From Spirochaetota bacterium (GTDB taxonomy: Bacteria; Spirochaetota; UBA4802; UBA5550): a stretch of 64,000 nt of DNA. A program made the position numbers and the translations under genes. The DNA is taken from NCBI GenBank assembly GCA_017999915.1, contig JAGNKX010000002.1, forward strand, positions 186,001 through 250,000. The letters run 5' to 3'. Below the pieces are notes generated by a model that was given only the letters and a program-made list of their open reading frames with translations, was not told where the DNA came from and made no database searches. Within the stretch, counting starts at the first letter, position 1, and each line of letters begins with the position of its first letter. This document shows positions 25,210 through 48,650 of this stretch, in pieces.

Positions 25210-26652
25210 TTAGTACCGATAATGGTCCGGTTTATAGGGCCCTTCAATCGATACACCGATATAATCCGCCTGCTCCTTGGTCATTTTTGTCAGCTTGACG
25301 CCCAGCTTGTCCAGGTGCAGCCGGGCAACTTCCTCATCAAGCTTCTTGGAAAGAGTGTATACACCGATCTCATGTTTGCCCTGGGCCAGCTCGATCTGCG
25401 CCAGGGTCTGGTTGGTGAAGCTGTTGCTCATGACAAAGCTGGGATGGCCCGTCGCGCAGCCGAGATTTACAAGACGACCTTCCGCAAGCACGATGATGGA
25501 GCGGCCGGATTCCAGTGTCCATTTGTCCACCTGGGGTTTGATGGTATCCTTTTTACATTTCGGATTGTTCTCAAGATAATGCATGGCTATCTCGCTGTCA
25601 AAATGGCCGATATTGCATACAATGGCCCCTTCTTTCATCTGCTCCATATGCTTCCCGGTAATAACATCCAGGTTACCGGTGGAGGTAACGAAGATATCGC
25701 CTTCGGAAGCCGCGTCATCCATGGTGGTCACTTCGTAGCCCTCCATGGCGGCCTGGAGGGCGCAGATCGGGTCGATTTCAGTGATGAGGACCCTGGCGCC
25801 GAAACCGCGCATCGACTGGGCGCAGCCTTTGCCGACGTCACCGTATCCGCATACGACAACAACTTTACCGGCAACCATGATATCGGTTGCTCTCTTGATG
25901 CCGTCCGCCAGGGACTCCCGGCATCCGTAGAGGTTATCAAACTTCGACTTGGTGACCGAGTCATTGACGTTGATGGCCGGGAACAGGAGCTCCTTGTTCT
26001 TTTCCATTTGATACAGGCGGTGCACGCCGGTAGTGGTTTCCTCGGAAACGCCTTTAACCTTGGCGGCGATCTTGGTCCATTTCTGCGGATTAAGTTGAAC
26101 GCTTGCGATCAACCTATCTATGATGATCTTGAATTCCTTGTTGTCATATTTCTTTTCAAGAATCGATGGATCCTTTTCCGCCTTGACGCCCTGGTGGATC
26201 ATGAGAGTCGCGTCACCGCCGTCATCAACGATCTGGTCCGGACCGGATCCGTCAGGCCAGGTCAGGGCCTGCTCCGTGCACCACCAGTACTCCTCAAGTG
26301 TCTCGCCCTTCCAGGCAAAGACCGCTGCCGTATCGGCCTTGGCTATCGCCGCCGCCGCATGGTCCTGGGTGGAAAAAATATTGCATGAAGCCCATCTCAC
26401 ATCGGCGCCAAGCGCCTGGAGCGTTTCAATGAGCACCGCCGTCTGGATCGTCATGTGAAGACTTCCCATGATCTTGAGGCCCTTCAACGGCTTCTGTGCG
26501 CCATATTTCTTGCGTACCGCCATGAGGCCGGGCATCTCATCTTCCGCGAGCTGAATCTCTTTTCTTCCCCATTCAGCGAGAGAAATATCCGCCACCTTGT
26601 AGCGGAGATCTTTATCAAGCGGCGTGATATCTCTTTTTACTGTAACATTCAT
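25210..26652 (-). CDS. ahcY: S-adenosylhomocysteine hydrolase
   Basis: Splits S-adenosylhomocysteine to adenosine and homocysteine in the methyl cycle. 480 residues from ATG 26652, where AAAGGAG lies seven bases upstream. The NAD-binding motif is [15 protein letters not shown], with [13 protein letters not shown] and [10 protein letters not shown] also present; the chain ends in DHYRY, the conserved C-terminus that completes the neighbouring subunit's NAD site. A 20-bp palindrome at 26680-26699 lies 28 bases upstream of the start and is the likely operator of the regulator encoded next door. Confidence 0.97.
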
Positions 26653-26679: not shown

Positions 26680-26699
26680 ATGTATTGATATCATTACAT
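26680..26699. promoter_or_regulatory. Operator candidate upstream of ahcY
   Basis: ATGTATTGATATCATTACAT is palindromic at 18 of 20 positions. Its TTGATAT and AATGTA parts recur in the larger palindrome at 27708-27751, consistent with one ArsR-type regulator binding both. Confidence 0.65.
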
Positions 26700-26794
26700 C
26701 CCGTCAAAAAATCCCGCTGTTTTTCTGATAATAATTTATTGCAGGATTTTTCCGGATATGGAATGAAACATCTCGATTATATGATTTTATCCCT

Positions 26795-27709
26795 CTATTT
26801 TTTTATAGAAACAAACAGGTCGATTTTCAAACCGTCCCGCGCGTCAAACTGAACAAATTCCCGGGGCAAAAATCCGCCGGCCGAAAGCCATTTTTCAATA
26901 TTCTTTTTTGTAAATCCAAGCCACCGGTGTTCATATTTTTTTCTCATTTCTTCATTCTGGTGCTTATCCAGATCAACGATTATCAGCGAGCCGCCCGTTT
27001 TAAGGACCCTTCCCGCTTCCAGTATGCTTGTGTCCGGAGACGGCAGGTGATGAAGGACCATGTTGATAATCGCCGCGTCAGCCTCCTGGTCACGCATGGG
27101 AAGATGTTCCATTTCGCCGATCCTGAGCTCGATGCCCTTTCCGTTTGATGCGAGTCGACGCTCCGCTTCTTCCAGCATCCTTGGCGACTTATCCACGCCA
27201 ATGACCTTCCTGGCCTTTTTCCTGATAGGAATGAGCAATTCACCGGTTCCGCAGCCCAGGTCCGCGGCGACATCGCAATCAGCTATTCGCTCCACGATTT
27301 CATCAGAAATATTTACAGTGCCGAATATCCCGAGCTTTATGTCGTCCCATTCCGAAGCAATTGAATCGAAAAACCTGGTCTTTTCTTTTAATCCTTCCTC
27401 CAGGATGGCTTTCATCGCCATATAATCTTGTTTCAAATCCTGATTATTGCCGACAAAATCGCGAAATAGGTCGTTAAAGTCGCCTCCACGTCCTTCCTGT
27501 GCCGCACTATAGAAAACCCACAGTCCATCCCGGCGAAATTTAAGAAGGCCGCAATCGGTCAATATTTTTAAATGCCGTGAAATTCGCGGCTGCCCCATCC
27601 CCATGACCGAGACAATTTCATTGACATTTAGTTCATGACGAAGAAGAAGATTCAGCAGACGCAAACGCGTTTCGTCAGCCAGGGCTTTATAATACTGAAC
27701 TATTTCCAT
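26795..27709 (-). CDS. ArsR-family regulator fused to a SAM-dependent methyltransferase (SahR-like)
   Basis: 304 residues. Residues about 1-95 are a winged-helix ArsR domain (YYKALADETRLRLLNLLL, then MGMGQPRISRHLKIL as the recognition helix). Residues about 110-304 are a class I methyltransferase fold with VAADLGCGTGELL (SAM loop) and NMVLHHLPSP. No metal-binding cysteine pair is seen. Regulators of this build (SahR) sense S-adenosylhomocysteine in Proteobacteria and control ahcY and related genes, and ahcY is the next gene downstream. The ATG at 27709 sits at the edge of a 44-bp palindrome and has no ribosome site. Confidence 0.85.
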   Translation of the reverse strand: MEIVQYYKALADETRLRLLNLLLRHELNVNEIVSVMGMGQPRISRHLKILTDCGLLKFRRDGLWVFYSAAQEGRGGDFNDLFRDFVGNNQDLKQDYMAMKAILEEGLKEKTRFFDSIASEWDDIKLGIFGTVNISDEIVERIADCDVAADLGCGTGELLIPIRKKARKVIGVDKSPRMLEEAERRLASNGKGIELRIGEMEHLPMRDQEADAAIINMVLHHLPSPDTSILEAGRVLKTGGSLIIVDLDKHQNEEMRKKYEHRWLGFTKKNIEKWLSAGGFLPREFVQFDARDGLKIDLFVSIKK

Positions 27710-27751
27710 TTACATTACTATATCAAGATATATTGATATAGTAATGTAAAT
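27708..27751. promoter_or_regulatory. 44-bp palindrome over the start of the ArsR-methyltransferase gene
   Basis: Two perfect 19-base arms (27708-27726 and 27733-27751), with spacer GATATA; the inner part reads TATATCAA-GATATA-TTGATATA. It begins at the second base of the start codon, so it would act as operator and also fold the mRNA start into a hairpin. Confidence 0.75.
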
Positions 27752-27998
27752 ACTGTTTGAAGTCAAGTTTTTTTATTATTTTTTAAAATTTATATTTTTG
27801 GCCGTCAGAGTAATTATTTGCAATGAAATAATATGCACAGGGAGCAGAGTAATTTCATTTAGTAATCCTTCCAGAGATCCAGAAACCATTTTTTGGGTGT
27901 AACGATTTTTCAATAGAGTAAAAAATAATATTATCTCTTGAAATATTTGCACTTTCTAAATATTATTACAAATTATATCAATTATCCCGAATCAATAC

Positions 27999-29684
27999 AT
28001 GAAAATAATCTTCTTAACCGATATACACGGCTCCTTCGGCCAGACAGCATCCCTACTCTACGAATCAGTAGCCGATTTGTATATCATCGCCGGCGACCTG
28101 ATCGACATCCCCTTCTATAGCATCAATACCGCGATCCAGTACCATGACATACAGACCTATCTTCACACCCTCAGGAAAAAAATGAAAAGGGAAGAGCTGG
28201 TGCTGGAGGATTTCGTCAACGAGCTGCTCGATTCCCCCAATGTCCCCGAAGATATCATCGAGAAGGGAAGCGAATACCAGCAGATGACCATCAGGTCCCG
28301 GCGCGTCATGCAGCAAAAGTACAAGGTCCTGGAAAACATGATCTCGTTCAAGTCGGCAACGGTATTCGCGCTGCCCGGCAACTACGATATGGACCTGAAA
28401 TTCACGTCACTCCACGAGCGGGACCTTCACCTGCACTGGCACAACATCGGCGGCCTCAAGGTCGCCGGATACGGGGGCGCCGATGTATGGACCGCGGGAA
28501 TCCCCGAGCGCTATATTGTACAATACAACGGCGGCATAGGCCTGAACGACCGCAACAACGAGATGTGGAATTTCTTCAAGGCGGTGAAACCGGACATCAT
28601 CGTCGCCCACCAGCCGGCCCACGGCATACACGACCGGATCGCCCGCATAGGTCCGTCCGGGTCCCCTGCCCTCAGGAATTTCTGCGAGAACAATTCGGTG
28701 AAGCTCTGCCTTACCGGCCACATCCACAACGACTGGGGCTTCAAGGAGGTGGATGGATGCGTGTATCTCAATCCCTCCAACTTCGGCGAGGTTACCACGG
28801 TGCAGGGCGAAGTCTCCGAGGGGGGGTTCTTTTACCAGATCGAGTTCAACGAAACCGATCTCGAAAAGATATCCCTGAAAAAGATGGTCGGCGATCACCG
28901 CATTCACGATATCGTCGAGCATTACCACATTGACGGGAAGTGGCTCGAGGATATCATCGACGTGGAGCGCTACCAGGCGCGGCGGCTGGGACGGAATTAC
29001 GACATGGAAATACAGAAATACCATCACATCCCCGAGATAGAGCTCTTCAAGGAGATCAAGAACTTCTTCCGCATGTTCCGCACCCAGGAGACGGAGGAGC
29101 GTCTTGACGAGCTTGACCATGCCGTGGAGATGCTCAAGGACAGGTTCGATGATATCGCCATGGATATTGTCGGCTCGGTCAACATGGGCATATCCCAGGA
29201 AAGCTCGGACATCGACATCGTCCTGTATGTACGGTGCGGAAGGAACTGCCAGGACATGTACGAGCAGTGCGATTATTACAAGAGCGCCAAGGCCCTGCTC
29301 GAAACGATCATCGGCGACAAGTACAGGTTCGAGATCATCGACTGCATCGACCTGAACGTCGTCGAGCGCAGCATCATCACGAAAAACTACGAATGCGAGG
29401 TGACCCAGCGCTTCGTTGCGTACCGGTCCATCTGCCGCCCGGTGAACTACAAGGCCATCGCGCCCATCGAAGACATCCTGAACGAAGACATTGAATTCCG
29501 CCGGGAAATGGAGGGAAGCATCCGGTCATATTTCCGGATCTTCGCCACCACGTCCCAGCACATGCGGTCCTTTGACAAGTACGAGTCGCGGCTGAAATCG
29601 ATCGGGATCAAGCTTCCCGAATCGATACGGGATAAAATACGGGAGTACCTGCAGGTGACCAACAGGGATAATCTCAACTGGTAA
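27999..29684 (+). CDS. Metallophosphoesterase fused to a nucleotidyltransferase-fold domain
   Basis: 561 residues. The N-terminal half is a calcineurin-type phosphoesterase: TDIHG (7-11), AGDLID (31-36), GNYD (127-130), a later AHQPAHG and GHIHN (240-244). The C-terminal part has a polymerase-beta-like nucleotidyltransferase signature GSVNMGISQESSDIDIVLY (392-410), with Asp404 and Asp406 as metal acids. Both sets of catalytic residues look intact. The combination suggests opposing addition and removal of a phosphate or nucleotide. The ATG lacks a Shine-Dalgarno site. It may be co-transcribed with the methyltransferase that follows. Confidence 0.75.
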   Translation: MKIIFLTDIHGSFGQTASLLYESVADLYIIAGDLIDIPFYSINTAIQYHDIQTYLHTLRKKMKREELVLEDFVNELLDSPNVPEDIIEKGSEYQQMTIRSRRVMQQKYKVLENMISFKSATVFALPGNYDMDLKFTSLHERDLHLHWHNIGGLKVAGYGGADVWTAGIPERYIVQYNGGIGLNDRNNEMWNFFKAVKPDIIVAHQPAHGIHDRIARIGPSGSPALRNFCENNSVKLCLTGHIHNDWGFKEVDGCVYLNPSNFGEVTTVQGEVSEGGFFYQIEFNETDLEKISLKKMVGDHRIHDIVEHYHIDGKWLEDIIDVERYQARRLGRNYDMEIQKYHHIPEIELFKEIKNFFRMFRTQETEERLDELDHAVEMLKDRFDDIAMDIVGSVNMGISQESSDIDIVLYVRCGRNCQDMYEQCDYYKSAKALLETIIGDKYRFEIIDCIDLNVVERSIITKNYECEVTQRFVAYRSICRPVNYKAIAPIEDILNEDIEFRREMEGSIRSYFRIFATTSQHMRSFDKYESRLKSIGIKLPESIRDKIREYLQVTNRDNLNW

Positions 29685-34210: not shown

Positions 34211-36622
34211 CTACCTGAATCTCCTCAGCAGCAGCGAGTTCATCACCACCGAGACCGAGCTCATCGCCATGGCGGCGCCCGCTATGACGGGAGAGAGCAT
34301 CCCCGATGCCGCAAAGGGGATGCCGACGCAGTTGTAAACGAAGGCCCAGAAAAAATTCTGCCTGATCTTCCTGATGGTGCGGCGTGAAAGCCGGATGGCG
34401 GTGACGATTCCCCAGAGGTCTCCGCTCATGAGGGTGATGTCCGCCGACTCCATGGCGATGTCCGTTCCGGTGCCGATGGCGATGCCGGTATCGGCCGCGG
34501 CCAGGGCCGGCGCGTCGTTGATGCCGTCCCCCACCATGGCCACTGCCCCGGCCCTGCCCTGGAGCTCCCGCACGGCATCGGCCTTGGCAGCGGGGAGCAC
34601 TCCCGCTATGACACGGCCAGCGTCGATGCCCGCCTGCGCCGCTATGTACTCGGCCGTGCGCCGGTTGTCCCCGGTGACCATGTAGACGTCGATCCCCATC
34701 CCCGCAAGGTCCCCGATGGCGCGCCGCGACGAATCCCTGATGGTATCGGACACGGCAACCACGCCGGCGGCGGCTCCGTCGACCGCGATGAGGACCGCGG
34801 TCTTCCCCATGCCCTCCAGGCCCGCGATTATATCGCCGCAGCAGGACGTGTCAATGCCGCTCCCGGCGAGGTAGTTCGGCGTGCCCGCCAATAAGTCTTT
34901 CCCCTGGAAACGTGCTCTGACCCCCCTTCCCGGCTCGGCTATGAACTCTTCCGGGTCCGGCACTTCCCCTGACTCGAGGGCGCGGCCGTATATGGCCCTG
35001 CCCACGGGATGCTCCGATCTCTTTTCCACGATGCCGGCGTAACGCAGTAGGTCCTCTTGTGTCACGGTCCCGGCCGGCACGATATCGGATACCGACAGCA
35101 CGCCGGTGGTGATGGTCCCGGTCTTGTCCAGCACCACGGCCCTGGTGCGGCAGGCAGCCTCCAGGGCCGGGCCGCTCTTGAAGAGGATACCCAGGTCAGC
35201 GCCACGGCCGGTCCCCACCATGACCGCCGTGGGCGTGGCGAGCCCCAGGGCGCAGGGGCAGGCGATCACCAGCACCGCCACGGCGCTCACGATGGCCATC
35301 CGCGCGTCCCCCGTGGCGATCATCCATGCCGCAAAGGTCACGGCCGCCACCGCCAGCACCGACGGCACGAATACGGCCGCGACCCGGTCCGCGAAGCGCT
35401 GGATCGGCGGCTTTCCCGCCTGGGCCTCCTCCACGGTGCGGATGATCTGGGCAAGGACCGTGTCCCTGCCGACGCGCTCCGCCCGGAAGGTGATGGTCCC
35501 GAAGCGGTTGATGGTGGCCCCGGTGACGGCGTCGCCTGGGCCCTTGTCCACGGGAACGCTTTCGCCGGTTATCATGCTCTCGTCCACTGAGGACGCGCCC
35601 CCGATGACCTTCCCGTCCACCGGGATCTTCTCCCCAGGCTTTACCACCACCGTGTCCCCCGGGGCGACCTCCGCGGCAGGGACAGCGATCTCCCGCCCGT
35701 CCCTCAGGATCACCGCTTCGGCGGGCTGGAGCCCCATCAGCTTCTTGATGGCATCGGAGGTCATCCCCTTGGCGCGGGCCTCGAAGAATTTCCCCAGCAG
35801 GACCAGGGTTATGACCACGGCCGAAGCCTCGAAATAGAGGTCCCCCGCCGCGCCCGACACCGCGGCAAGGATGAAGCCGTTGTAGACGCTGTAGAAATAG
35901 GCGGCGCTTGTGCCGAGGGCCACCAGGAGGTCCATGCCGGGGCTGCCGCCGCGCAGGCCCAGGTAGGCGTTGCGGTAAAAGCGCCATCCCACGATGAACT
36001 GCACCGGCGTCGCCAGGGCCAGCTGCAGCAGGGGGTGATGAAGGATCGGCGCATGGATATCAAGCATCATGAGGATCATGGAAAGGATAAGCGGAGCGCT
36101 CAACGCGGCGGAGACAGCCACGAGGGTCCCGAGCTTCCGCATCTCCGCGCGCCGGAGCTCCGCGGCCCGGTCCGGGCGGTCCTCCTCGATCTTCTCCGCG
36201 TCGTATCCGGCCCTGCGTATCTCGCCGACTATTTCGTATGACTTGATCCTGAGGGGATCGTAGCGCACGCGGCCCTTCCCGGTGCTCAGGTTCACGGAGG
36301 CTTCTATGACACCGTCCTTTTTCCCAAGGGCCTTCTCTATGCGGGCAGCGCAGGCGGCGCAGGACATGCCGGTTATGAGAAGATCGACCGCGGTCTCATC
36401 TTTTTCCCCGTCGATTTCCGCGCCGTATCCGGCCTTCTCGACGGCAGCGACGATTTCCTTCTCCCCGACCGCGGCGTCATCGTAGGTTATCCTGGCCGTT
36501 TCCAGGGCCAGGTTGACCGTCGCGCCGGTGACGCCCTCTATTTTCTTGAGGGACTTTTCGATCCGGGCGGAGCAGGCGGCACAGGACATGCCGGTTATTC
36601 GGAGCTTCTTTTCTGTTTCCAT
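34211..36622 (-). CDS. copA: Copper-exporting P1B-type ATPase
   Basis: 803 residues. Two N-terminal HMA domains ([13 protein letters not shown] near 8-20 and [13 protein letters not shown] near 84-96) are followed by eight membrane helices. ACPCALG is the copper-type CPC motif, with DKTGTITTG as phosphorylation site, and [33 protein letters not shown] closes the hinge. TM7-TM8 residues ([22 protein letters not shown]) fit Cu(I) export. A TGCTCTGACCCC repeat lies inside at 34913-34924, encoded as part of GRGVRARF in the N domain. No copper regulator is adjacent; HMA chaperone-like genes are at 56.4-57.1 kb. Confidence 0.93.
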
Positions 36623-36784
36623 GGCGGCCCCTTTGTTTATCTGAAATACAGGTTATCATTATGTTACCGCTAATCACTGATTGCAACCATCTTACCGGAT
36701 TGGCCCATAAAAAAGAGGATTGATTTTTTACCGATACCAATAAAAAATATCATCTATCATTACGCTTCAGGGGGATGGATAAAA

Positions 36785-37660
36785 ATGAAAACGATAACGC
36801 GATCATTACAGGCAATACTGGTTTTAACCGCACTGTCAGTTACAGTCAGCGCCGCAGATACCAGGGAAAAGCTGTTCCTGGTCATCAATTACTCGGTCCA
36901 TCACTGCAATATCGATATCGAACTCAATGGCGTGCAAATGACAAAAACCGATAAAAATTCCGCCTACTCAACTACGGGATTCTCCACAGGGGCCGGTCTC
37001 TGGATAATGCCGGGTAAAAATACCATATCGCTGCGGGTGCGCCCCATGGAAAAGCCCGCCGACTCCGGTGACAGGCCCTCCGTCGAGATCAGCCTCTCCA
37101 CGGTTACCGAGGGCCAGATGACCAACGAGGGGAAAAAATTCTTCGAACTAAAGATACCCGAAAAAGACAACGATACCAGGCTGGACAACGTAACAAAGCC
37201 CTTTACGGTCACGAAAACCTTCACCCCGGCCTATGCGCCTCCGTCGGAACTCTGGGGCAAGATCAAAACAGTCAAGATCGACGACGCCGCCCGCGCGGAA
37301 ATAACCAGGCTTGCAAAAGACTATCACGCGGCCCTGAGCAGGAAAGACGCGGACGCGGTCTGGACGATCCTGCAATTCGCCTCGATGGACTCGGCGCGCA
37401 TCCGCCACCAGCCGGCCGACGAGCTGAAAGCGCAGTTCACCAAGGTCTTCAAGGGAATGATGGCTGACAGGAATTTCAAGCTGCTGCCCCTGGACGCCGG
37501 GAAACTCGCCATGAAGCCGGTGGCGGACGGCAAGGTCATCCAGGTCACCGATCAATCGGGCAATGAGCCGATACGGACAAAGGAAACCAGGGACGGCGGC
37601 GCCTACACCTTCGGCGTGTTCGCGGGCAATATCGATGGGAAGTGGATAATCGTGCGGTGA
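36785..37660 (+). CDS. Secreted protein of unknown function, source of a duplicated tail
   Basis: 291 residues with a signal peptide (about 1-22). The N-terminal half is a beta-rich domain (REKLFLVINYSVHHCNIDIEL). The C-terminal half (about 165-291) looks like an NTF2-like fold with AKDYHAALSRKDADAVW and ends in FGVFAGNIDGKWIIVR. The last 16 codons and the bases after them recur 4.5 kb away at 42162-42209. It is first in a run of secreted-protein genes. Confidence 0.65.
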   Translation: MKTITRSLQAILVLTALSVTVSAADTREKLFLVINYSVHHCNIDIELNGVQMTKTDKNSAYSTTGFSTGAGLWIMPGKNTISLRVRPMEKPADSGDRPSVEISLSTVTEGQMTNEGKKFFELKIPEKDNDTRLDNVTKPFTVTKTFTPAYAPPSELWGKIKTVKIDDAARAEITRLAKDYHAALSRKDADAVWTILQFASMDSARIRHQPADELKAQFTKVFKGMMADRNFKLLPLDAGKLAMKPVADGKVIQVTDQSGNEPIRTKETRDGGAYTFGVFAGNIDGKWIIVR

Positions 37661-37730
37661 GAGCCTCAGCAGCGCCAGGGGAACTGATTCAGCAACCATG
37701 AAACATCTAACGACCAGGAGATAGACAATA

Positions 37731-40235
37731 ATGAGAGGAAAAATCAGTTCTGTGATGCTGATCCTTGCATCAACGATTTTCTTTTTAACGCAGCAGGCGC
37801 CGGCCCAGACCCAGGCAGACCGCGACAAGGCTCAGGCCAGCTATAAACAGGGCCTGGAGCAGGTCGAGGCCAGCAAATTCCAGGAGGCCTATGATTCCTT
37901 TAGAAACGCCTGGCAACTCGATAAGGGAAATTGGGATTACAAATGGCGATTTATGGTTATCTCTTCCTACATGGGCCAGCAGGCGCTCTTTAAAGGGAAC
38001 CATGCGAAAGCCCTGGAGCTTTTCAATGGTGCTTTGAGTGTAAAGCGTGAAATAACCAAAGAGGAGGATTTTGAGTTTATTACCATAAAAAGGTTTATCG
38101 ACCTGACTGAGGAGCATCAGAAATATTATCCGGTCAAACCGGAATACACGTACAAAATACAGGTGCTCTACATCATGAATACCGATGTCAAGAATACCTT
38201 TGATAAAAAGAACCAGTCCATTACCTGTAAAGGCTCGATCCCGAAAGTACTCCCGGACAACATGGTCCGCTATCACGAGATGCTGAGAATCTATCTCGAG
38301 ACCCTGAGCCGCGGCCGCCTGAGTATATCCTTTGACACACAAAAGGTGGATGCAACGGTCACGAGGGTGCTGGAATTATATGGTTACAGTCCCGACTTTG
38401 ACAGCATTCAACCGTCCTTGTCCCCGCTGTACTTCGCGGGACGCAATACCTACGATACGATCCTTTTTTATTGGTACAGCGGAAAGCTGCCGTGTACTAT
38501 ACATGCAACCTGGGATGGAGGTGTAATCCTGGTTCCCTACGCCTGGAGAAGCAGTGCGATGAGGGGTCGAATCGTGTTGCACTCAGGAGAAGGGGGAACG
38601 CAGATAGATCATATTTCTAACATAGGCCATCACTGGATAGCCTTTCACGAATATTTTCACCATATCGAGTACCTGTGCGGCAACATCGCGCCCCAGCATG
38701 CCCATCTTCCCGAAGAATTCCCGAAGGCGCGGAAAAATTTTCCCCAATGGATACCCGAAACACACAAGTCCGGGGCCACCCTTGAATACAGCTGGTACAA
38801 ATACCACATCCGGGAAACCGCACCGGCGCGGATGGAACAACTGTCCCGCGAGACCGGCATCAAACCACCATGGCGCAACATGAGCTATGTCAACCGGTTC
38901 CCCGACACCACCGACGAGAGGCTGTTCAGGTCTTATAGCGCCATAATGGAGAAAGTCTCCATGCTGGACCGCCAGAAGGCGGCAGACCTGGTTGACGAGG
39001 GATTCAGGCTCACGTGGTCTGGCAAAAACAGGGAGGCAGAGGAAAAATTTGAGCAGGCGCTGAAACACAATCCATACCATCACGCGGCATTGGATCAGCT
39101 CGGGTGGCTGGCCATTGCCTCCCGCAACAATGACTTTATCCGCGCGGACAGGTATTACACCGAGATGGCCAGGGTGTTCCCTGACCCGAAAAAATGCTTT
39201 GGCGCCGGCGCGGTTTTCTTTGAACGAAACCAGCCTGCCCGCGCCATTCCATATTTCAGAATTGCCGCGGGCAGAGCAGATGCCCTGCCCGGATATACAG
39301 TGTGGCTGGCGCGGGCCCTGGCCGCGTCAGGCGACGCAAAAGGCGCGTCAGCCGAAACAGCGCGTATATCCGATCATCCGATCATGAAGGCGCCCCTGGC
39401 GGTGATAGAGTCGCGCACCCTTGATCTCACTCTTCTCACAACGGGGTCAAGCCCCGATGCGGAAGACTCTATGTGGCTGTCCAAGCTGTGGCGGCCGATA
39501 CCGGACCGGGCGCGCTGGCGCCTGGTGCCGGCCAGGGACGGCGTCCATGTCCGTATCGTATCCAACCTGCACTGGAGGTGCCTTGACGCTCGCGGCGACA
39601 GGATCGTCCTGGACCCGATAAATGAGAATCTGTCGCAGGAGTGGAAAATGGCGACGCTCCCCGACGGTCAGCGTAGGTTCATATCTAAATCCTCCGGCCT
39701 CACCCTTGCCATTCTTCCCGCGTCAGGAAAACAGGGTCCAATTCTTTCCCTGCAGAAGGCAGGCGAGAGCAAACACCAGGCATGGGCGGTGGAGACCTTT
39801 GATCCCCTGATCGGGATTGCCGATAGCATGGCCCCGGCCTGGTTCGTTTCCGTATCAAGCGGCATGGCGGTGGCCATAAAGGGCGGCGACCGGTCAAACG
39901 GCGCGCCGGTCATTCAATGGACGCGGGAGAACGGCGCCCATTTCCAATGGAAGATCATCCCCGTCGGAACAGACGGAAGCCTCATACTCCTGTCGGCCCT
40001 GTCCGGGAAGTGCCTTACTGCCATTGAGAAAGACGGGGCTTACTCAATCCAGAGCCGCGAATTGACCCGGAAAGCCGATCAACTGTGGCGCATCGACAGG
40101 GGAAAGGATGGAACAATCAGGCTGATACATACAGGATCAGGCCTTGCCCTGCAGCCCGATTTACAAGACAAATATGGCATCACCCTTGGCGTGGTTGAAG
40201 ACACAGCGCCGCAGTGGTGGAAGATAGAGTATTGA
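37731..40235 (+). CDS. Secreted TPR-zincin-TPR-lectin protein (permuted relative of the 22.5 kb gene)
   Basis: 834 residues with a signal peptide (about 1-25). Order: N-terminal TPR-like helices (about 30-110), peptidase region with HEYFH at 306-310, TPRs (about 420-540), then two beta-trefoil lectin stretches (about 590-690 and 700-834) with QxW-type motifs such as SQEWKM, HQAWAV, HFQWKI, DQLWRI. The same HEYFH, TPR and lectin parts occur at 22472-25036 with the lectin at the front. It is a likely exported metallopeptidase. The next gene starts 16 bases later, so the two form an operon. Confidence 0.75.
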   Translation: MRGKISSVMLILASTIFFLTQQAPAQTQADRDKAQASYKQGLEQVEASKFQEAYDSFRNAWQLDKGNWDYKWRFMVISSYMGQQALFKGNHAKALELFNGALSVKREITKEEDFEFITIKRFIDLTEEHQKYYPVKPEYTYKIQVLYIMNTDVKNTFDKKNQSITCKGSIPKVLPDNMVRYHEMLRIYLETLSRGRLSISFDTQKVDATVTRVLELYGYSPDFDSIQPSLSPLYFAGRNTYDTILFYWYSGKLPCTIHATWDGGVILVPYAWRSSAMRGRIVLHSGEGGTQIDHISNIGHHWIAFHEYFHHIEYLCGNIAPQHAHLPEEFPKARKNFPQWIPETHKSGATLEYSWYKYHIRETAPARMEQLSRETGIKPPWRNMSYVNRFPDTTDERLFRSYSAIMEKVSMLDRQKAADLVDEGFRLTWSGKNREAEEKFEQALKHNPYHHAALDQLGWLAIASRNNDFIRADRYYTEMARVFPDPKKCFGAGAVFFERNQPARAIPYFRIAAGRADALPGYTVWLARALAASGDAKGASAETARISDHPIMKAPLAVIESRTLDLTLLTTGSSPDAEDSMWLSKLWRPIPDRARWRLVPARDGVHVRIVSNLHWRCLDARGDRIVLDPINENLSQEWKMATLPDGQRRFISKSSGLTLAILPASGKQGPILSLQKAGESKHQAWAVETFDPLIGIADSMAPAWFVSVSSGMAVAIKGGDRSNGAPVIQWTRENGAHFQWKIIPVGTDGSLILLSALSGKCLTAIEKDGAYSIQSRELTRKADQLWRIDRGKDGTIRLIHTGSGLALQPDLQDKYGITLGVVEDTAPQWWKIEY

Positions 40236-40251
40236 TACCGAAGGTGACTCA

Positions 40252-42147
40252 ATGAAAAAAACGATTCCCCTGATTCTTTATATTATGCTCATCCTGACCG
40301 TACCAGCCCTTTCTCCAGGAAAAATTTCCGGCGGCGGTCCTTTCGAGCTGTTCCCTGCCCTTGAGGCTCAGGCCGCGGCAAACCTGCCCCAGGGCATGGA
40401 CGCGGCCAGGGCCCGGGAACTGCTTGGCTCGTGGTACGACGGGGGCAACAGCGAGCTCGTCCGCGGGATGGAGATGGTCCTCGCCGGCGAGGGGGAAACG
40501 AACCACGCCCTGGCTCTCCTGCTTCATCTCCTCGACAGAGACTGCTATGAACGCGGTGAAACCATGACGGCCGCCCTGGCGCTTGCGAACAACCACCTCT
40601 ACGCGCTGGTAACCCCGGCGATCCGCGAGGAGATAAAGAAAGATATCGTTAAACACTACAGGTTCTACCGTAAGATCATTGCGTGGCAGAAAAAGTCACT
40701 GGAGCTTCCCTATGATCTGTCCCGGGTTCCCCTCGTCGCCCAGATATACTGGGCGGACCGGAGGGCCTATCCGCCCGAGGACATCACGTACCCGGTTCGC
40801 ACTCTCTCCGACTACCATGAGTATGTCGACTCGATAGAGACGCTGGAATTTTTCCATAACACCGCAGTCGAGAGGAAGCTTTACCTGGGTGAGTCCGTCA
40901 CAAAAATAGGGCGTAATGTCGCCCAATTCGTTCATAAAAGCAAAGCAGCTGACGGCCTCAGCCAGCACTTGTACAATCCGGATGAAAAAACAGCCGGGAA
41001 AATCATCGGCCGCATGCCGCAAGACCCGGGACCGCGCACCGGCCTCGAATGGTTCCAGCTCCGGTACATGGGAATCCAGCGCAACATATGCGATTTCATC
41101 TGGACCAATTACCAAAGACAGCTCCTCGAGCGGACAGGGCACTCGGTGGGCCTGTGCGAAGTCTCATCGCTCATTGAGATGGCCGCCTTCAAGGGGATGG
41201 GAATCCCCGCCGGGCTCATGGTCCGCTTTCCGCCCAAGGAACGGCCCTTTCCCGGCCATGTATTTGCCATGTATTACGACCCCTTCCTGAAAAAATGGAA
41301 GAATCTCGAGATGATACGCTCATGGGACAAGCCCCTGCTGACCGAGCTCGTAATCCACAAACCGGTCTGGCACCACCGCGTCAAGGACCTCCAGGTCAAG
41401 GTCACGGAGAAGGCCCCGGCCAATCGTTTTTTCAAAGTGCTTGATTTCGGCATTCCCAACGGGCTGATTGAAAAAGTGTTCATGACAAACCGCCCGTCAT
41501 GGAACGATACGCTTTTCAGCCGGGCCATGCTTCCCGACGATCCCAGGGACAGGGACGGCGACGGCATCCCCGATTTCGAGGAAAAAATCCTCGGCACCGA
41601 CCCGTCACGGCCTGATAGCGCGGGTGACGGCGTATCGGATCTATGGAAACTGAACCACGGCTACGATCCGGGTACTCCCATCACGCAGGGCTCCCTGGAT
41701 TCCCCCCCCATGGACGGCCTCGGCGGCGCATTCTCCGGTGAAAGGAAAATGACCACCGTCACCGTGAAACGCGCAGTCAGCCCCCGCGAGGACGTGCCGG
41801 AGATAAACACCATGTCCGCCGCGCGCCTGGGGGACAATGTCTATGTGCACGTCACCTTTCACAATGATATCCGCAAGTGCAAACGGAAGGACAATTATAT
41901 ATGGTTTGGCATCGAGGGAGGCCGAGGCCGCGTCAAGGGCTTCGACCTTGTGGTTGATGGCAACGGGATCGGCCAGAACAATAACGTCCGGGCACAGGAA
42001 CCGGACGGCTACCGCGACCTGCGGGGCATTTCCATCACCGACGTGGAGCTCATGGTGCCGGTGCGCTACCTCGATGGGGCCTCTTCGGTTAAGATTGTTT
42101 TCTTTACGGCCCTCGAGCGCGGAGAGCTGATACTGCCTGTCAGATAG
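40252..42147 (+). CDS. Secreted transglutaminase-like protein with thrombospondin type 3 repeat
   Basis: 631 residues with a signal peptide (about 1-24). A helical region (about 35-290) precedes a transglutaminase/protease-like core: Cys302 in VGLCEVSSLIEMAAFKGMG and His336 in FPGHVFAMYYD. The usual third aspartate is not obvious (NLEMI stands there). Residues about 428-472 are a calcium-binding TSP3-type repeat (DRDGDGIPDFEEKILGTDP). The C-terminal 150 residues are beta-rich, similar in look to DOMON/CBM9-type domains. AAGGTGA lies before the ATG. Confidence 0.6.
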   Translation: MKKTIPLILYIMLILTVPALSPGKISGGGPFELFPALEAQAAANLPQGMDAARARELLGSWYDGGNSELVRGMEMVLAGEGETNHALALLLHLLDRDCYERGETMTAALALANNHLYALVTPAIREEIKKDIVKHYRFYRKIIAWQKKSLELPYDLSRVPLVAQIYWADRRAYPPEDITYPVRTLSDYHEYVDSIETLEFFHNTAVERKLYLGESVTKIGRNVAQFVHKSKAADGLSQHLYNPDEKTAGKIIGRMPQDPGPRTGLEWFQLRYMGIQRNICDFIWTNYQRQLLERTGHSVGLCEVSSLIEMAAFKGMGIPAGLMVRFPPKERPFPGHVFAMYYDPFLKKWKNLEMIRSWDKPLLTELVIHKPVWHHRVKDLQVKVTEKAPANRFFKVLDFGIPNGLIEKVFMTNRPSWNDTLFSRAMLPDDPRDRDGDGIPDFEEKILGTDPSRPDSAGDGVSDLWKLNHGYDPGTPITQGSLDSPPMDGLGGAFSGERKMTTVTVKRAVSPREDVPEINTMSAARLGDNVYVHVTFHNDIRKCKRKDNYIWFGIEGGRGRVKGFDLVVDGNGIGQNNNVRAQEPDGYRDLRGISITDVELMVPVRYLDGASSVKIVFFTALERGELILPVR

Positions 42148-42161
42148 GGGCCTGAGTCGTA

Positions 42162-42209
42162 GGCGTGTATGCGGGCAAGATCGACGGGAAGTGGATTATC
42201 ATACGGTGA
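42162..42209 (+). pseudogene. Tail fragment of a second copy of the 36785-37660 gene
   Basis: Codes for GVYAGKIDGKWIIIR and a stop, matching GVFAGNIDGKWIIVR at 37613-37660, and the following GAGAGCCT is identical too. No frame leads into it from upstream. It is the remains of a duplicated or deleted gene. Confidence 0.75.
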
Positions 42210-42263
42210 GAGCCTGGCCCGCGACGGGGGCCGGCGGGATCACCCCGCCGGCATCCAGATCCG

Positions 42264-42917
42264 CTATTTATCCGCCCCGACCCAGGGCTCCGGTTTCCCG
42301 CTTATGATGAATAGAGAGGGATTGATGGCGCCGCCGCCCAGGCCCATGCAGCCGAGACCGATATAGACCGAGTCATTGAGCTTGCGCAGCTCATCGCGCA
42401 TGGAATGGACGACCCCGCCGTTATAAAGACTGTAATTCAGCTTGTATGAATTCTTCCCGTCATATTCAGACGGACCGATCGAGGTGGCAATCTTCCTTGT
42501 TCGCACAAGGGTCTTCTGCCCGTCCTTTTCAGCCGCGAAAATATTATAGCCTTCGCCCCTTGTCTTGTCCACGGCCCTGAAAGCCTTGCCGGTCCATTTT
42601 CCCGGTCCGAAGAAATTGTCCGTGTACGCCTGAACAGCCGGCGCCATGATGCCGCCCGGATGGTTCTGTGCGATATATTCGCCCTGGAGATCGTCGATCC
42701 CGGGAGCGGAAACCGCGTAGAAGAGCTGGACGAAATCAGCCTTGGAAAGCTTGAGCAAGTCCTCCACAGTGGCCGTCGCCGGGTCCTTGCCGAGAATGTC
42801 CGCCGGGCTCTTGCCCTTGTAGGAGCCGCCCTTCTGTGCGATATTGATGCCCGTGACCGCAAGATTGATCCCTACTATTATGCCAATTGCTATCAACGCT
42901 ATTTTCAATGTTTTCAT
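42264..42917 (-). CDS. Unknown protein with an N-terminal membrane anchor
   Basis: 217 residues. A signal anchor (about 5-22) is followed by a soluble domain with GKSPADILGKDPATATVEDLLKL and GLGCMGLGGGAINPSLFII. I know no family for it. The soluble part would face the periplasm. It lies 19 bases downstream of the SDR gene and so is probably in the same transcript. Confidence 0.6.
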   Translation of the reverse strand: MKTLKIALIAIGIIVGINLAVTGINIAQKGGSYKGKSPADILGKDPATATVEDLLKLSKADFVQLFYAVSAPGIDDLQGEYIAQNHPGGIMAPAVQAYTDNFFGPGKWTGKAFRAVDKTRGEGYNIFAAEKDGQKTLVRTRKIATSIGPSEYDGKNSYKLNYSLYNGGVVHSMRDELRKLNDSVYIGLGCMGLGGGAINPSLFIISGKPEPWVGADK

Positions 42918-42936
42918 CTGTCATTTCTCCGGTGTA

Positions 42937-43752
42937 TTATTTTCTTCCAACAAAATTGTCCATGGCCCGGTCGCCGCCTGACTTGGCCAGGAAAAAATCG
43001 AAGAGGCTTGTGGGCAGGAGCTTGAGTATCATGGACCCGCGTATGCTCATGGCTGGCAGCATCACGTAAGGCTTGTCCTTTTTCACGCCCTTCACGATGG
43101 CACCGGCTGCCGTTTCGGGTTTCACGAAGGGGCTCAAAACCATGGGCTTGCACCCCTTGAACATGCCCGTGTCTATGAAATAGGGGCACACGCAGGTGAT
43201 GTGCACATTTTTGTACCCGAATTTTTTCAGCTCCCTCCTGAGGGCCTCGGAAAAACCGACTTCCGCGAACTTGCTCGCCGCGTAGTCCGTGAGAAGGGGC
43301 ATGCCGAGGAGACCGCTCGAGGACGCCACGTTGACGATGTTTCCGCTGTTCCGCTTCGTCATCTCGCCCAGGAACTCCTTGGTGAAATAGGTATGGCCCC
43401 AGTAATTGACGCTCATCGAATGCTCCATCTCGTCCAGGGACATGTCGAGGAAGGCCTTGCCCGCCACGACTCCCGCGTTGTTTACCAGCACGTCGACCTG
43501 TCCGAAATCCTTCCGGACCGCCGCGGCTGTTTTCGAAACCTCGGCGCTTTTCGAGATGTCGCACGTATAGGTCCCCGTTTTCACCGACGGCCCCGCCGCC
43601 TTCACCTCGGCCTCAACCTTCGCAAGAGAGTCCCTGTTGATGTCGACCATGGCCACGTTGGCCCCTTCGCCGGCGAACTTCATCGACATGAGCCTGCCGA
43701 TGCCGCTGGCCGCGCCGGTGATCAGCACGTTTTTGCCTTTCAATTGCTTCAT
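42937..43752 (-). CDS. Short-chain dehydrogenase/reductase
   Basis: 271 residues from ATG 43752, where AGGAG lies seven bases upstream; an in-frame upstream start at 43782 has no ribosome site. The Rossmann motif is TGAASGIG, then NNAGV, catalytic Ser in ASSSG and YAASK with Tyr and Lys. The C-terminal part resembles the retinol dehydrogenase-like branch of the family (IDTGMFKG). The substrate is not evident; co-transcribed with the unknown protein downstream. Confidence 0.88.
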   Translation of the reverse strand: MKQLKGKNVLITGAASGIGRLMSMKFAGEGANVAMVDINRDSLAKVEAEVKAAGPSVKTGTYTCDISKSAEVSKTAAAVRKDFGQVDVLVNNAGVVAGKAFLDMSLDEMEHSMSVNYWGHTYFTKEFLGEMTKRNSGNIVNVASSSGLLGMPLLTDYAASKFAEVGFSEALRRELKKFGYKNVHITCVCPYFIDTGMFKGCKPMVLSPFVKPETAAGAIVKGVKKDKPYVMLPAMSIRGSMILKLLPTSLFDFFLAKSGGDRAMDNFVGRK

Positions 43753-43871
43753 GCTCAACTCCTGATTGTTGGATGCAACCATGCATGCATGCGTTGCGGC
43801 ACATCGGCGCCGGGCGCCTCAATGCCCATGATCGGAGCTTACTCAAAAAGGTATTTTAAAATCGACCGGTG

Positions 43872-45017
43872 TTATAACTTCGGACTATTAATCGGGGGCC
43901 GCCGGAGGGACTGGTTTTCCCGTCGGTACGCCACGGGAGACTTGCCGGTGAAGCGGGTGAAGGCGTCATAAAAGGCCGACTTGGAATTGAATCCCACGGC
44001 GAAGGCGATGTTGAGGACCGGCGCGTCGGGCTCGGAAACCAGGAGCTCCCTGGCACGGTCTATTCTGAAGCTGTTGATGAAGCCGTTGAAGTTCGTGTTG
44101 AGCTTTTCGTTCAGGAGCTGCGATAGCTGGTGCTGGGTCAGCTCCACGCGGTCCGCGAGGTCCTTGAGGGTGATGTTCTCGTCCAGGAAAAGCTCGTCTT
44201 CGACCATCATCCGGTTAAGCTGAAAGACAAGGGCGTCCACGTCGATTCCGCTGAGGCGCCAGCGCCCGCTCCCGCCATAGCGGTTCTGGGCTTGAAGGAT
44301 CACCAGGTGGATAAGCCGGGGATACCGGAGCCCCGCAAGGTAGGATAGTATGAAAAGCAGCCCGATGGCGCTGATGCCGCCCAGGACCGGCATGATCGAT
44401 CCCGTGAGATACCCGTAAAAGATGAAGCCGCAGGAGGCCATGATGACCACCGAGGAAACGCCCGTGATGGCCAGCATGACCGACTGGGCCTTATCGCTCC
44501 AGAGCGACACGATCTTTATCTTGAGAATCGAGAAGCAGACCGCGCTTTGAACCGCGGCCATGCCGATAAGGACCCGCATCCCCGTTATCTCCGGGCGGGA
44601 GGGCCCGCCGCCGAAGATACCTTTCAGGACATCGGACCGTGTCCCTGACGGGAGGAGCATGAAATAGATATCGCCCGCGGCGGCGATACATGCGGGAATG
44701 AAGAAAATGAAGCGCCGCCGGGGCAGCGATTCCGGCGGAAAAATGACAAGGTAATATGCGAAATAGGCGGCCGGTACAATGGCGTTGATCAGCGTCATGT
44801 GAAATGACAGCAGCGCGGGGTATGCGGCCGCCATGCCGTTGGCGATGAAGCTGATCTGGAACATGAGGAGACTCAGCATAAACAGGAGCGCCGAGAGGTT
44901 GATGTTCTCGATGCGCTGTGAAGGGATGATGGCGTGTATCATCGAATAGAGCAGCGCCACGCTTCCGGAGAAGAAGAGGAAGCCGACGAAAATGGTCTCC
45001 ATAAAAGATGCTTCCAT
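43872..45017 (-). CDS. AraC-family regulator with a membrane-embedded N-terminal domain
   Basis: 381 residues from ATG 45017; 45002 is also possible and 45146 is the longest frame. About seven membrane helices (about 1-240) precede a C-terminal AraC DNA-binding domain (about 270-370) with two helix-turn-helix units: ITLKDLADRVELTQHQLSQLLNEK and LNIAFAVGFNSKSAFYDAFTRFTG. This 7TM-AraC arrangement is typical of Leptospira-like spirochaetes. The ligand is unknown. It is a separate unit from the ilvC gene upstream, with a terminator between. Confidence 0.85.
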   Translation of the reverse strand: MEASFMETIFVGFLFFSGSVALLYSMIHAIIPSQRIENINLSALLFMLSLLMFQISFIANGMAAAYPALLSFHMTLINAIVPAAYFAYYLVIFPPESLPRRRFIFFIPACIAAAGDIYFMLLPSGTRSDVLKGIFGGGPSRPEITGMRVLIGMAAVQSAVCFSILKIKIVSLWSDKAQSVMLAITGVSSVVIMASCGFIFYGYLTGSIMPVLGGISAIGLLFILSYLAGLRYPRLIHLVILQAQNRYGGSGRWRLSGIDVDALVFQLNRMMVEDELFLDENITLKDLADRVELTQHQLSQLLNEKLNTNFNGFINSFRIDRARELLVSEPDAPVLNIAFAVGFNSKSAFYDAFTRFTGKSPVAYRRENQSLRRPPINSPKL

Positions 45018-45150
45018 GGCGTTCTGGATTCCTGGTGTGCGAAAGACCTCTATATTCGCAATAATCCCCGCCCATTTTTTTGTCAACGCGGAAAATTGCA
45101 TGACCCCGGTCCATGGCCCAGACAAAAATCCCTTCCGGGGGCACAAGGAA

Positions 45151-45174
45151 AAGGCGCGGTTTAATCCGCGCCTT
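45151..45174 (-). terminator. Terminator of the ilv operon
   Basis: AAGGCGCGG (45151-45159) and CCGCGCCTT (45166-45174) form a nine-base perfect stem with a six-base loop, followed by a short T run on the minus strand. Confidence 0.75.
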
Positions 45175-45244
45175 TATGAGTAACCAACAATTGCTACTTT
45201 CCTTCGGCTCTTCTCTCTTTATTGGAGAAAAACCGGGGGCGGGG

Positions 45245-46240
<996 letters not shown>

Positions 46241-46253
46241 GATGAACTCCTTG

Positions 46254-46289
46254 TTGACCCCCCTGTCCCCCTGAGGGGGCATGGGTCAA
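46254..46289 (-). promoter_or_regulatory. Hairpin just before the ilvC ribosome site
   Basis: TTGACCC (46254-46260) and GGGTCAA (46283-46289) enclose CCCCC/GGGGG (46267-46271/46275-46279). The ribosome site AAGGAG follows about two bases after the hairpin in the transcript. It may stabilise or process the ilvC message. Confidence 0.5.
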
Positions 46290-46316
46290 TTTATAATATT
46301 TTTATTACTAATTCAA

Positions 46317-46448
46317 CCTCACCCGCGCTCCGCGCACCCTCTCCCATTAAACTCGGAAAAAAGGAGAGGGTTTCCGAGAAACGATATTCTATCCGCTCCC
46401 CCTCTCCTTTTTTCAATTCTTAATGGGAAAGGGGGCCGGGGGGTGAGG
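46317..46448. repeat. 132-bp palindromic repeat element between ilvN and ilvC (plain form)
   Basis: Ends CCTCACCC (46317-46324) and GGGTGAGG (46441-46448). Inside, CCCTCTCCCATTAA (46337-46350) pairs with TTAATGGGAAAGGG (46420-46433) with one mismatch, and AAAAAAGGAGAGGG (46357-46370) pairs perfectly with CCCTCTCCTTTTTT (46400-46413). The same element, carrying an extra hairpin module, is at 49764-49982. Confidence 0.75.
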
Positions 46449-46460
46449 TCAGATAATAGC

Positions 46461-46961
46461 CTACTCCTTCAACAGCGACACCCGTCCGGTGCGCATCAGC
46501 TCCCTGATGCCGTAGGGCTTCAACAGCTCGATAAAATTATGGATCTGGACCGGATCGCCCTTCACGCCCAGGGTGATGGTCTTCGGCGAGATATCGGCGA
46601 TATCCGCTTTGAAGATCTCGCCCAGCTGGTAGATCTCGGGTCGCTTGTTCGGCGGGGCGTTCACCTTCACCAGGACCAGCTCACGCTCCACCGTGGGAAG
46701 ATCCGTATGGTCGCTCACCTTGATGACGTCGATCAGCTTGTTCAGCTGCTTCTTGACCTGCTCGATGACCCGGTCGTCGCCGCGCGTCACGATGGTCATG
46801 ACCGATACGTCCTCCTGCTCAGTGGCGCTCACCGCCAGGGAATCGATGTTGTATCCGCGCGCGGAGAAAAGGCCGGCCACGCGGGCCAGGACGCCGAAGC
46901 GGTTCTCCACCTTGACCGATATCACGTATTGCTTCATGGTTTCATCGTTTGGCGCTGTCAT
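46461..46961 (-). CDS. ilvN: Acetolactate synthase small (regulatory) subunit
   Basis: 166 residues, full length, with an ACT domain at the front (KQYVISVKVENRFGVLARVAGLFSARGYNI) that binds valine for feedback control, and the second half typical of IlvH/IlvN. The start at 46961 (MTAPNDETMKQY) is three bases after the ilvB stop; an internal ATG at 46937 is the alternative. It partners the large subunit encoded upstream. Confidence 0.93.
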   Translation of the reverse strand: MTAPNDETMKQYVISVKVENRFGVLARVAGLFSARGYNIDSLAVSATEQEDVSVMTIVTRGDDRVIEQVKKQLNKLIDVIKVSDHTDLPTVERELVLVKVNAPPNKRPEIYQLGEIFKADIADISPKTITLGVKGDPVQIHNFIELLKPYGIRELMRTGRVSLLKE

Positions 46962-46964
46962 GGC

Positions 46965-48650
46965 TTACGCGAGCATCTCCCTCATGATGATCTCCTTGAA
47001 CGACTGCCCCGCCGGCACCATCGGGTAGACGTTCTCCTCGCGGGAAACGACAAAATCCATGATGATGGGGCGGTCGGTGATGGACAGGGCCCTCTGCAGG
47101 GCCGGTGCCACCTCCTCGTAGGTCCTGATCCGCATTCCCTCGGCGCCATAGGCCTCGGCAAGCTTTACAAAATCAGGCGCGAAATCGATGCAGGTGTGGC
47201 TGTAGCGTTTATCGAAGAAAAGCTGCTGCCACTGGCGCACCATGCCGAGGAAACCGTTGTTGAGGATGGCGATGATGACCGGCAGCCGGTGCTGCACCGC
47301 GACGATCAGCTCCTGGATGTTCATCTGTATCGAGCCGTCGCCGGCGATGTCGATGACGCGCTTGTCGGGCCGCGCCAGCTGAGCGCCGATGGCGGCGGGG
47401 AAGCCGTATCCCATGGTGCCCAGGCCGCCGGAGGAAATGAAGGTCCTCGGCTGGGTGTACTTGTAGAACTGCGCGGCCCACATCTGGTTCTGCCCCACCT
47501 CGGTGCAGATGATGGCGTCGCCCTTTGTCTGGCGGTAGATCTCCTCGACAACGAACTGCGGCTTGATCCGGTCATCGCCGTTCCGCTCATAGGTCAGCGG
47601 GTGCTCGCGCTTCAGCCTGTCGATCTCCGCGAGCCACTCGTCGATCTTCGGGGCCTTGACCTGCTCGATCATGGCGGCGAGGACCTGCCTGCAGTCGCCC
47701 ACGATGGGAACGTCAACCGCCACTGTCTTGCTGACCGACGCCGGATCGATGTCGATGTGTATGACCTTCGCGTTTGGAATGAAGTCCGAGATCTTCCCGG
47801 TGACGCGGTCGTCGAAGCGGGCGCCCACGGCGATCAGGAGGTCGGACTCGTTCACCGCGTGGTTGGCGTAATAGGTGCCGTGCATGCCCAGCATCTCCAG
47901 GGCGAGGCGGTCGGTCTCCGGATAGACCCCGAGGCCCAGGAGCGTCGTGGTGATCGGGATCTGTGTCTTTTTGACGAACTCCCGGAGCTCCTTCGAGGCA
48001 TTGGATATCACCACGCCCCCGCCGGCGTAGATCACGGGCCGCTTCGCGCTCTCGATGAGCTGGCACGCCTTCCTGATCTGGTTCGGATGGCCCTCGTACA
48101 CAGGCTTGTAGCTCCGTATATGCACGCTCTCCGGATAGGCGAACTTGTGCTCCCCCTTGGAGATGTCGACCGGGACGTCGATAAGGACAGGCCCGGGCCT
48201 GCCCGTTGATGCTATGTAGAAAGCTTCCTTAATAACGCGCGCAAGGTCCTTGATGTCCTGGACCAGGTAATTATGCTTGGTTATGGGACGGGTGATGCCG
48301 GTACTGTCGACTTCCTGGAAGGCATCGTTGCCGATCTGCTGCCTGGTCACCTGGCCGGTGAACACCACCAGGGGGACCGAGTCAAGGTGCGCCGTTGCGA
48401 TGCCGGTCACGCAGTTGGTCGCGCCGGGGCCGGAGGTGGCGATGACGACGCCGACCTTGCCGGAGGCCCGCGCGTACCCGTCGGCCGCGTGCACCGCCCC
48501 CTGCTCATGCCTGGTCAGAATGAACTTGAAGGGCGCGTTGTGCAGGGCGTGGAATATCGGAATGACCACGCCGCCCGGATAGCCGAACATGCACTCGACA
48601 TTCTCCTTTTTCAGGCATTCAACGATGATGTCCGCGCCTTTTATCTTCAC
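46965..48650 (-). CDS. ilvB: Acetolactate synthase large (catalytic) subunit
   Basis: TPP- and FAD-dependent enzyme that opens valine, isoleucine and leucine synthesis. 561 residues from a GTG start at 48650 with GGGAG about seven bases upstream. The TPP motif is [29 protein letters not shown], with the glutamate block FGYPGG...[21 protein letters not shown] at the front. Normal length and order. First gene of ilvB-ilvN-(repeat)-ilvC. Confidence 0.97.

Follow-up and report, generated by a model that had tools for sequence, protein, structure and literature searches.

A SahR-type regulatory system in a Spirochaetota bacterium, with an extended operator and a candidate CODH/ACS target

Read from its sequence, the locus described here is a SahR system. 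Its phylum is a new one for SahR, its operator is extended, and one of the operons among its apparent targets was not expected. Protein family, conserved synteny, a conserved operator, its overlap with the promoter and three sites in one genome all point in this direction, and the analysis supports the 44-bp palindrome at the start of sahR as the DNA site at which the gene's product, an ArsR-methyltransferase repressor of SahR type, acts. It is very probable that sahR encodes an autoregulated repressor of the S-adenosylmethionine (SAM) cycle, and that three units, namely sahR-ahcY, a homocysteine-methyltransferase/MTHFR fusion gene with metH, and a CODH/ACS cluster, are switched on together by S-adenosylhomocysteine (SAH). 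The SahR system would thereby be carried from the Proteobacteria to a second phylum, the Spirochaetota, in which it is widespread; a precise operator rule is supplied, hexamers every 8 bp, along with a testable link from SAH level to the CODH/ACS cluster, that is, from methylation demand to one-carbon/acetyl-CoA metabolism. The window referred to throughout is the whole 64-kb stretch of DNA that was analysed, positions 186001-250000 of contig C2 in genome G000 (5.46 Mb).

The regulator and its conservation

The product of sahR carries an ArsR HTH domain (PF01022, residues 12-56) followed by a methyltransferase domain (PF08241, Methyltransf_11, residues 150-244), the order of domains, an ArsR winged helix at the N-terminus and a SAM-dependent methyltransferase joined to it, that defines the SahR family and that bears out the earlier note on this DNA, which had called it an ArsR-methyltransferase gene. 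The AlphaFold model has a mean pLDDT of 95.1, and its C-terminal domain superposes on methyltransferases, many of them SAH-bound, with Z of 21-23. When a solved full-length relative was sought, only separate ArsR and methyltransferase structures were returned, an absence that proves nothing because the methyltransferase domain fills the fold list. When 50 proteins from spirochaetes and Pseudomonadota (29-80% identity to the query) are aligned, Q40, S44 and H46 of the recognition helix are invariant, as are G152, G154, G156 and D173 of the SAM/SAH pocket. The closest named relatives in public contigs are from uncultured Spirochaetes MAGs, at 80 and 71% identity. The upstream neighbour on the opposite strand (27999-29684, +) encodes a calcineurin-like phosphoesterase, whose C-terminal part resembles a nucleotidyltransferase only weakly (PF22600, below cutoff).

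Orthologues of SahR were found in 34 of 59 relatives and in 62 of 198 genomes of the phylum. Association with ahcY is without exception, the latter lying downstream of sahR on the same strand at 30/30 loci of the window's order, with spacing that ranges from overlapping to about 400 nt, and at all 23 further spirochaete loci; in the window the distance is 142 nt. Each of the 30 order loci has the palindrome upstream of sahR, either as such or in variant form. One spirochaete sub-clade (L182, L186, L198) has ahcY about 740-770 bp downstream of sahR, a long branch in the tree and a box degenerate in its left half. Pseudomonadota relatives (30-37% identity, full-length alignment) mostly precede metF/metH genes, and most have a box resembling ATATAAAGATATCTTTATAT; a Ruegeria genome, whose phylum supplied the Pseudomonadota set, gave no SahR match. 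In a tree of the spirochaete and Pseudomonadota proteins, with Desulfovibrio SahR not included, full support sets the Pseudomonadota proteins apart on one side, and the branching order among the spirochaete clades is not settled; the rows L174 and L175, labelled other-spirochaete, belong to the window's order.

Table 1. Features of the sahR-ahcY region, in window coordinates
Feature	Position	Strand	Remarks
ahcY, S-adenosylhomocysteine hydrolase	25210..26652	-	TIGR00936, 642 bits; AGGAG ribosome site about 26660
Near-palindrome before ahcY, ATGTATTGATATCATTACAT	26680..26699	.	no support as a SahR operator; a stray half-site at best
sahR	26795..27709	-	ArsR-family winged helix + class I SAM-dependent methyltransferase domain, 304 aa
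44-bp palindrome, ATTTACATTACTATATCAA-GATATA-TTGATATAGTAATGTAAAT	27708..27751	.	predicted SahR operator over -10, +1 and start-codon edge; two perfect 19-nt arms, 6-nt spacer
8-bp-phased hexamer lattice	27711..27748	-	[TACATT]AC[TATATC]AA[TATATC]TT[GATATA]GT[AATGTA]
Core SahR box, 20 bp, ATATCAATATATCTTGATAT (- strand)	27720..27739	.	ATC-N10-GAT type
-10 element TACTAT	27738..27743	-	inside left arm of palindrome; predicted +1 about 27731
-35 element TTGACT, sahR(-ahcY) promoter	27761..27766	-	predicted, conserved spacing

Operator anatomy, promoter geometry and ahcY

The palindrome covers the first two bases of the sahR ATG, and the earlier description of two perfect 19-base arms at this position holds up well against chance. 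With the arms taken as 22 bp, all positions but one pair (21 of 22); 3000 dinucleotide shuffles averaged 12.6 pairs and never exceeded 17. Its core is the 20-bp palindromic ATC-N10-GAT box that in the SahR family precedes sahR. With a matrix trained without this genome the site scores 57.2 bits, whereas nowhere else in the 64-kb window, overlapping positions aside, does the score rise above 9.4 bits; a full-sensitivity model search gives the site 43.4 bits. The consensus of sahR operators in the window's order is TATTACTATATCAATATATCTTGATATAGTAATA.

The operator can be read as five hexamers spaced at exactly 8 bp. Among 29 operators of the order, lag-8 self-identity is 0.61, compared with 0.35 in mononucleotide shuffles, and is the highest of lags 1-16, the corresponding z-score being inflated by the relatedness of the 29 operators. 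Four loci with unusual spacing (L016, L028, L030, L033) retain this lattice, the hexamers in them being even in number. The three-hexamer core is the SahR box itself, ATATCAAGATATCTTGATAT in other spirochaetes and ATATAAAGATATCTTTATAT in Pseudomonadota, the two forms differing at a symmetric pair of positions. The SahR box likewise lies over the start codon at L156 and L170, both from Pseudomonadota, as ACATAAAGATATCTTTATGT with the ATG inside the right arm, and the architecture is thus not peculiar to spirochaetes.

On the sahR strand the sequence TTGACT-N17-TACTAT (27766-27738) resembles a promoter whose -10 element falls within the operator. A TTGA[CA]/-10 pair with 16-18 nt spacing occurs at 23 of the 30 order loci, and TTGAC stands 37 nt from the palindrome centre at 11 of the 30. 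Given this conserved -35/-10 geometry, transcription is predicted to start near the palindrome centre, which would leave the left arm outside the RNA and give an mRNA that contains the right arm only. No Shine-Dalgarno-like word was found near the sahR start, as the earlier note had remarked, and the same is true of 26 of the 30 order sahR loci; occupation of that space by the operator may be the cause.

This geometry bears directly on the proposal, also made in the earlier note, that the palindrome is twofold in function, a DNA operator and a transcribed hairpin that lids the sahR start codon. The full 44 nt would indeed fold as RNA (-22.5 kcal/mol, z -6.3), there is no ribosome site before the ATG, and changes in the arms are compensatory, as would be expected for a DNA palindrome or an RNA stem alike. 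The folding part of that proposal stands for the whole palindrome; it does not stand for the predicted sahR transcript, which reaches only -1.3 kcal/mol and is equalled or bettered by 192 of 200 shuffles. At four loci (L020, L036, L040, L041) the promoter is shifted and the predicted leader is only 0-5 nt, making the mRNA nearly leaderless. Departures from pairing are mostly non-G-U, and the same operator precedes other genes, some of which have ribosome sites (metH of L089). With the left arm expected to lie outside the transcript, the RNA lid is contradicted by the conserved promoter geometry as well as by the folding of the predicted transcript, and is very improbable. A riboswitch at the sahR locus was rejected as well, an Rfam scan of the leader having given no match at the gathering score and only a sub-threshold chance match.

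A similar question arises at ahcY, where the near-palindrome 27 bases from the ATG at 26652 had been taken for a matching operator. The sequence is there, with 9 of 10 positions paired, and it sits in a promoter-like spacer, so that ahcY might have its own weak SahR operator with a promoter of the form TTGACG-N17-TACATT. Its status as an operator does not survive comparison with the sahR site, however: it scores 6.6 bits against 57.2 with the matrix trained without this genome, and in the full-sensitivity model search only 3.3 bits over 11 nt, as a half-site, against 43.4. Pairing as good is found in 73 of 3000 shuffles (2.4%) of that intergenic region, and the element is absent in all relatives in which it was sought, including one whose AhcY is 95% identical. 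Elsewhere in the order, moreover, sahR and ahcY may overlap or nearly touch. The low score, the shuffles and the absence in relatives speak against the element as a SahR operator, and separate control of ahcY by SahR is accordingly judged very unlikely. A search for a terminator-like site between sahR and ahcY found none. Taken with the weak and non-conserved ahcY element, the simplest reading is that ahcY is carried on the sahR transcript, and the two genes are probably co-transcribed.

The predicted regulon

Pattern searches for ATATCAA-N6-TTGATAT and for the form with a 14-nt gap returned mostly background, and a profile model was used instead; it was trained only on 13 sahR operators, and the best 150 candidates were scored per genome. 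Sites in the order of about 20 bits or less were treated as chance. Three sites stand out among the best 150 candidates of this genome, that of sahR (E 1.4e-10), C1:823843-823878 (E 1.1e-8) and C21:47447-47482 (E 6e-7), the next having an E value of 0.23. Neither of the latter two, nor the 8-bp hexamer lattice, is mentioned in the earlier note. The C1 site lies about 140 nt before a gene for a bifunctional homocysteine methyltransferase/MTHFR (NF006396, 740 bits), which is followed by a full metH with its activation domain. Together with the sahR-ahcY pair, this predicted operator before the fusion gene and metH agrees with the sahR, ahcY, metH and metF part of the core SahR regulon, of which metK is another member. 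The C21 site abuts acsV (RACo/AcsV), after which come genes for a CooC-like ATPase and a FosX-like glyoxalase, then folD, acsD, cooS, acsB and acsC. Its promoter reads TTGACA-N17-TACTAT, and the TTGAC-N17-TACTAT spacing is found at the acsV and metH operators as well.

Across 44 genomes, all 11 non-sahR sites with E <= 1e-4 precede either acsV (five: G000, G002, G003, G004, G005) or methionine-synthase or metF-fusion genes (six: G000, G003, G007, G010, G015, G016). AcsV of this kind is present in 5 of the 6 genomes of the genus, and the site is present in all five. Some observations weigh against the proposed regulon: the distant AcsV genes of the order (36-42% identity) have no site, which limits the CODH/ACS site to a single genus; the C1 operator stands as far as about 140 nt from its gene; and no site was found at the fusion gene of either G004 or G005. 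In G016 the operator precedes a MetH of 807 aa that lacks the PF02965 activation domain (L103:6699-9119), and methionine synthases of similar length are encoded at L090, L093 and L094. The cluster behind the SahR-type operator in G000 is compact and lies on one strand (C21, about 36086-47440; L101, L199). Its FosX-like gene (NF000222, 195 bits) is unexplained and was not seen in the G004 cluster.

Control of CODH/ACS in response to SAH, as predicted here, appears to be new, since the papers searched contained nothing that connects the CODH/ACS cluster with the level of SAH. For AcsB of Dehalococcoides, PMC7005905 describes a cleavage of acetyl-CoA from which methionine obtains its methyl group, and SAH control of CODH/ACS would make sense if the same were true here. 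The balance of the evidence leans slightly towards a history in which the CODH/ACS operon of this genus (the carbonyl branch of the Wood-Ljungdahl pathway) has been captured by a repressor that senses SAH, such that methylation status would directly set acetyl-CoA synthesis or cleavage, perhaps with acetyl-CoA cleaved to provide methyl groups for methionine as in Dehalococcoides, and in which the 8-bp-phased hexamer array could hold more than one dimer. Reductive use of CODH/ACS, in competition with MetH for methyl-folate, is equally possible as the physiological setting.

Proposed mechanism and comparison with known systems

Autorepression by occlusion of the -10 element and transcription start, relieved by SAH, is the best-supported mechanism. 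We infer DNA binding by this SahR from its family and operator, and take the sign of regulation and the effector by analogy from published SahR work. In Desulfovibrio, SahR is described as SAH-responsive, with sahR, ahcY, metH, metF and metK as core targets (PMC4239095), and in Ensifer deletion of sahR raises sahR transcription (PMC8877191). SahR would sit on the 8-bp-phased operator as a dimer or in a small cooperative array, cover the -10 element and the start, and block RNA polymerase. Accumulating SAH would bind the methyltransferase-like domain and release SahR, with the predicted result that sahR-ahcY is turned on to remove SAH, the homocysteine-methyltransferase/MTHFR fusion and metH are turned on to remethylate homocysteine, and the acsV-cooC-folD-acsD-cooS-acsB-acsC cluster is expressed.

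Much the same operator and regulator could respond to SAM or to another ligand rather than to SAH. SAM and SAH share one pocket, between which motif I and D173 do not discriminate, and SamR of the Xanthomonadales, a distant SahR homologue, is suspected in PMC4239095 of being a SAM sensor. Yet at every spirochaete locus examined sahR is accompanied by ahcY, the gene for an enzyme that acts on SAH; as PMC4239095 presents them, ahcY is a core SahR target and SamR regulons are without SAM-cycle genes except metK, and a SAM effector is therefore rather unlikely. Still less credible, to the point of being negligible, is that this is an unrelated ArsR-type regulator of metal or arsenic response that happens to carry a methyltransferase domain among accidental methyl-cycle neighbours. 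The general HTH_metalloreg model does match the protein, whereas synteny with ahcY extends across the phylum, the box matches the SahR box and the predicted regulon is that of the methyl cycle. The earlier note suggested a SahR-like regulator whose operator covers the start of its own gene, and these same features, with the domains, support that suggestion.

The SahR proteins of the Proteobacteria (Novichkov et al. 2014; Leyn et al. 2014, PMC4239095), as described there, likewise have the ArsR HTH and methyltransferase domains, a 20-bp ATC-N10-GAT palindrome, autoregulation, and sahR, ahcY, metH and metF as targets. Here, in contrast, the host belongs to the Spirochaetota, the box in the window's order is extended to a lattice of 4-5 hexamers with 8-bp spacing, and the predicted regulon includes the CODH/ACS cluster, no counterpart of which appears among the SahR targets noted from PMC4239095. 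SamR of the Xanthomonadales is a SahR-like protein with a longer, 24-bp palindrome of the ATC-N10-GAT type; according to the same source it lies beside metH genes, whereas here sahR lies beside ahcY. McbR of Corynebacterium, cited in PMC4239095, is likewise an SAH-responsive repressor of methionine genes, although it belongs to the TetR family and is unrelated to the SahR protein family. SAH and SAM-SAH riboswitches also place ahcY and metF/metH under SAH control, whereas the control predicted here would be exerted at a DNA operator.
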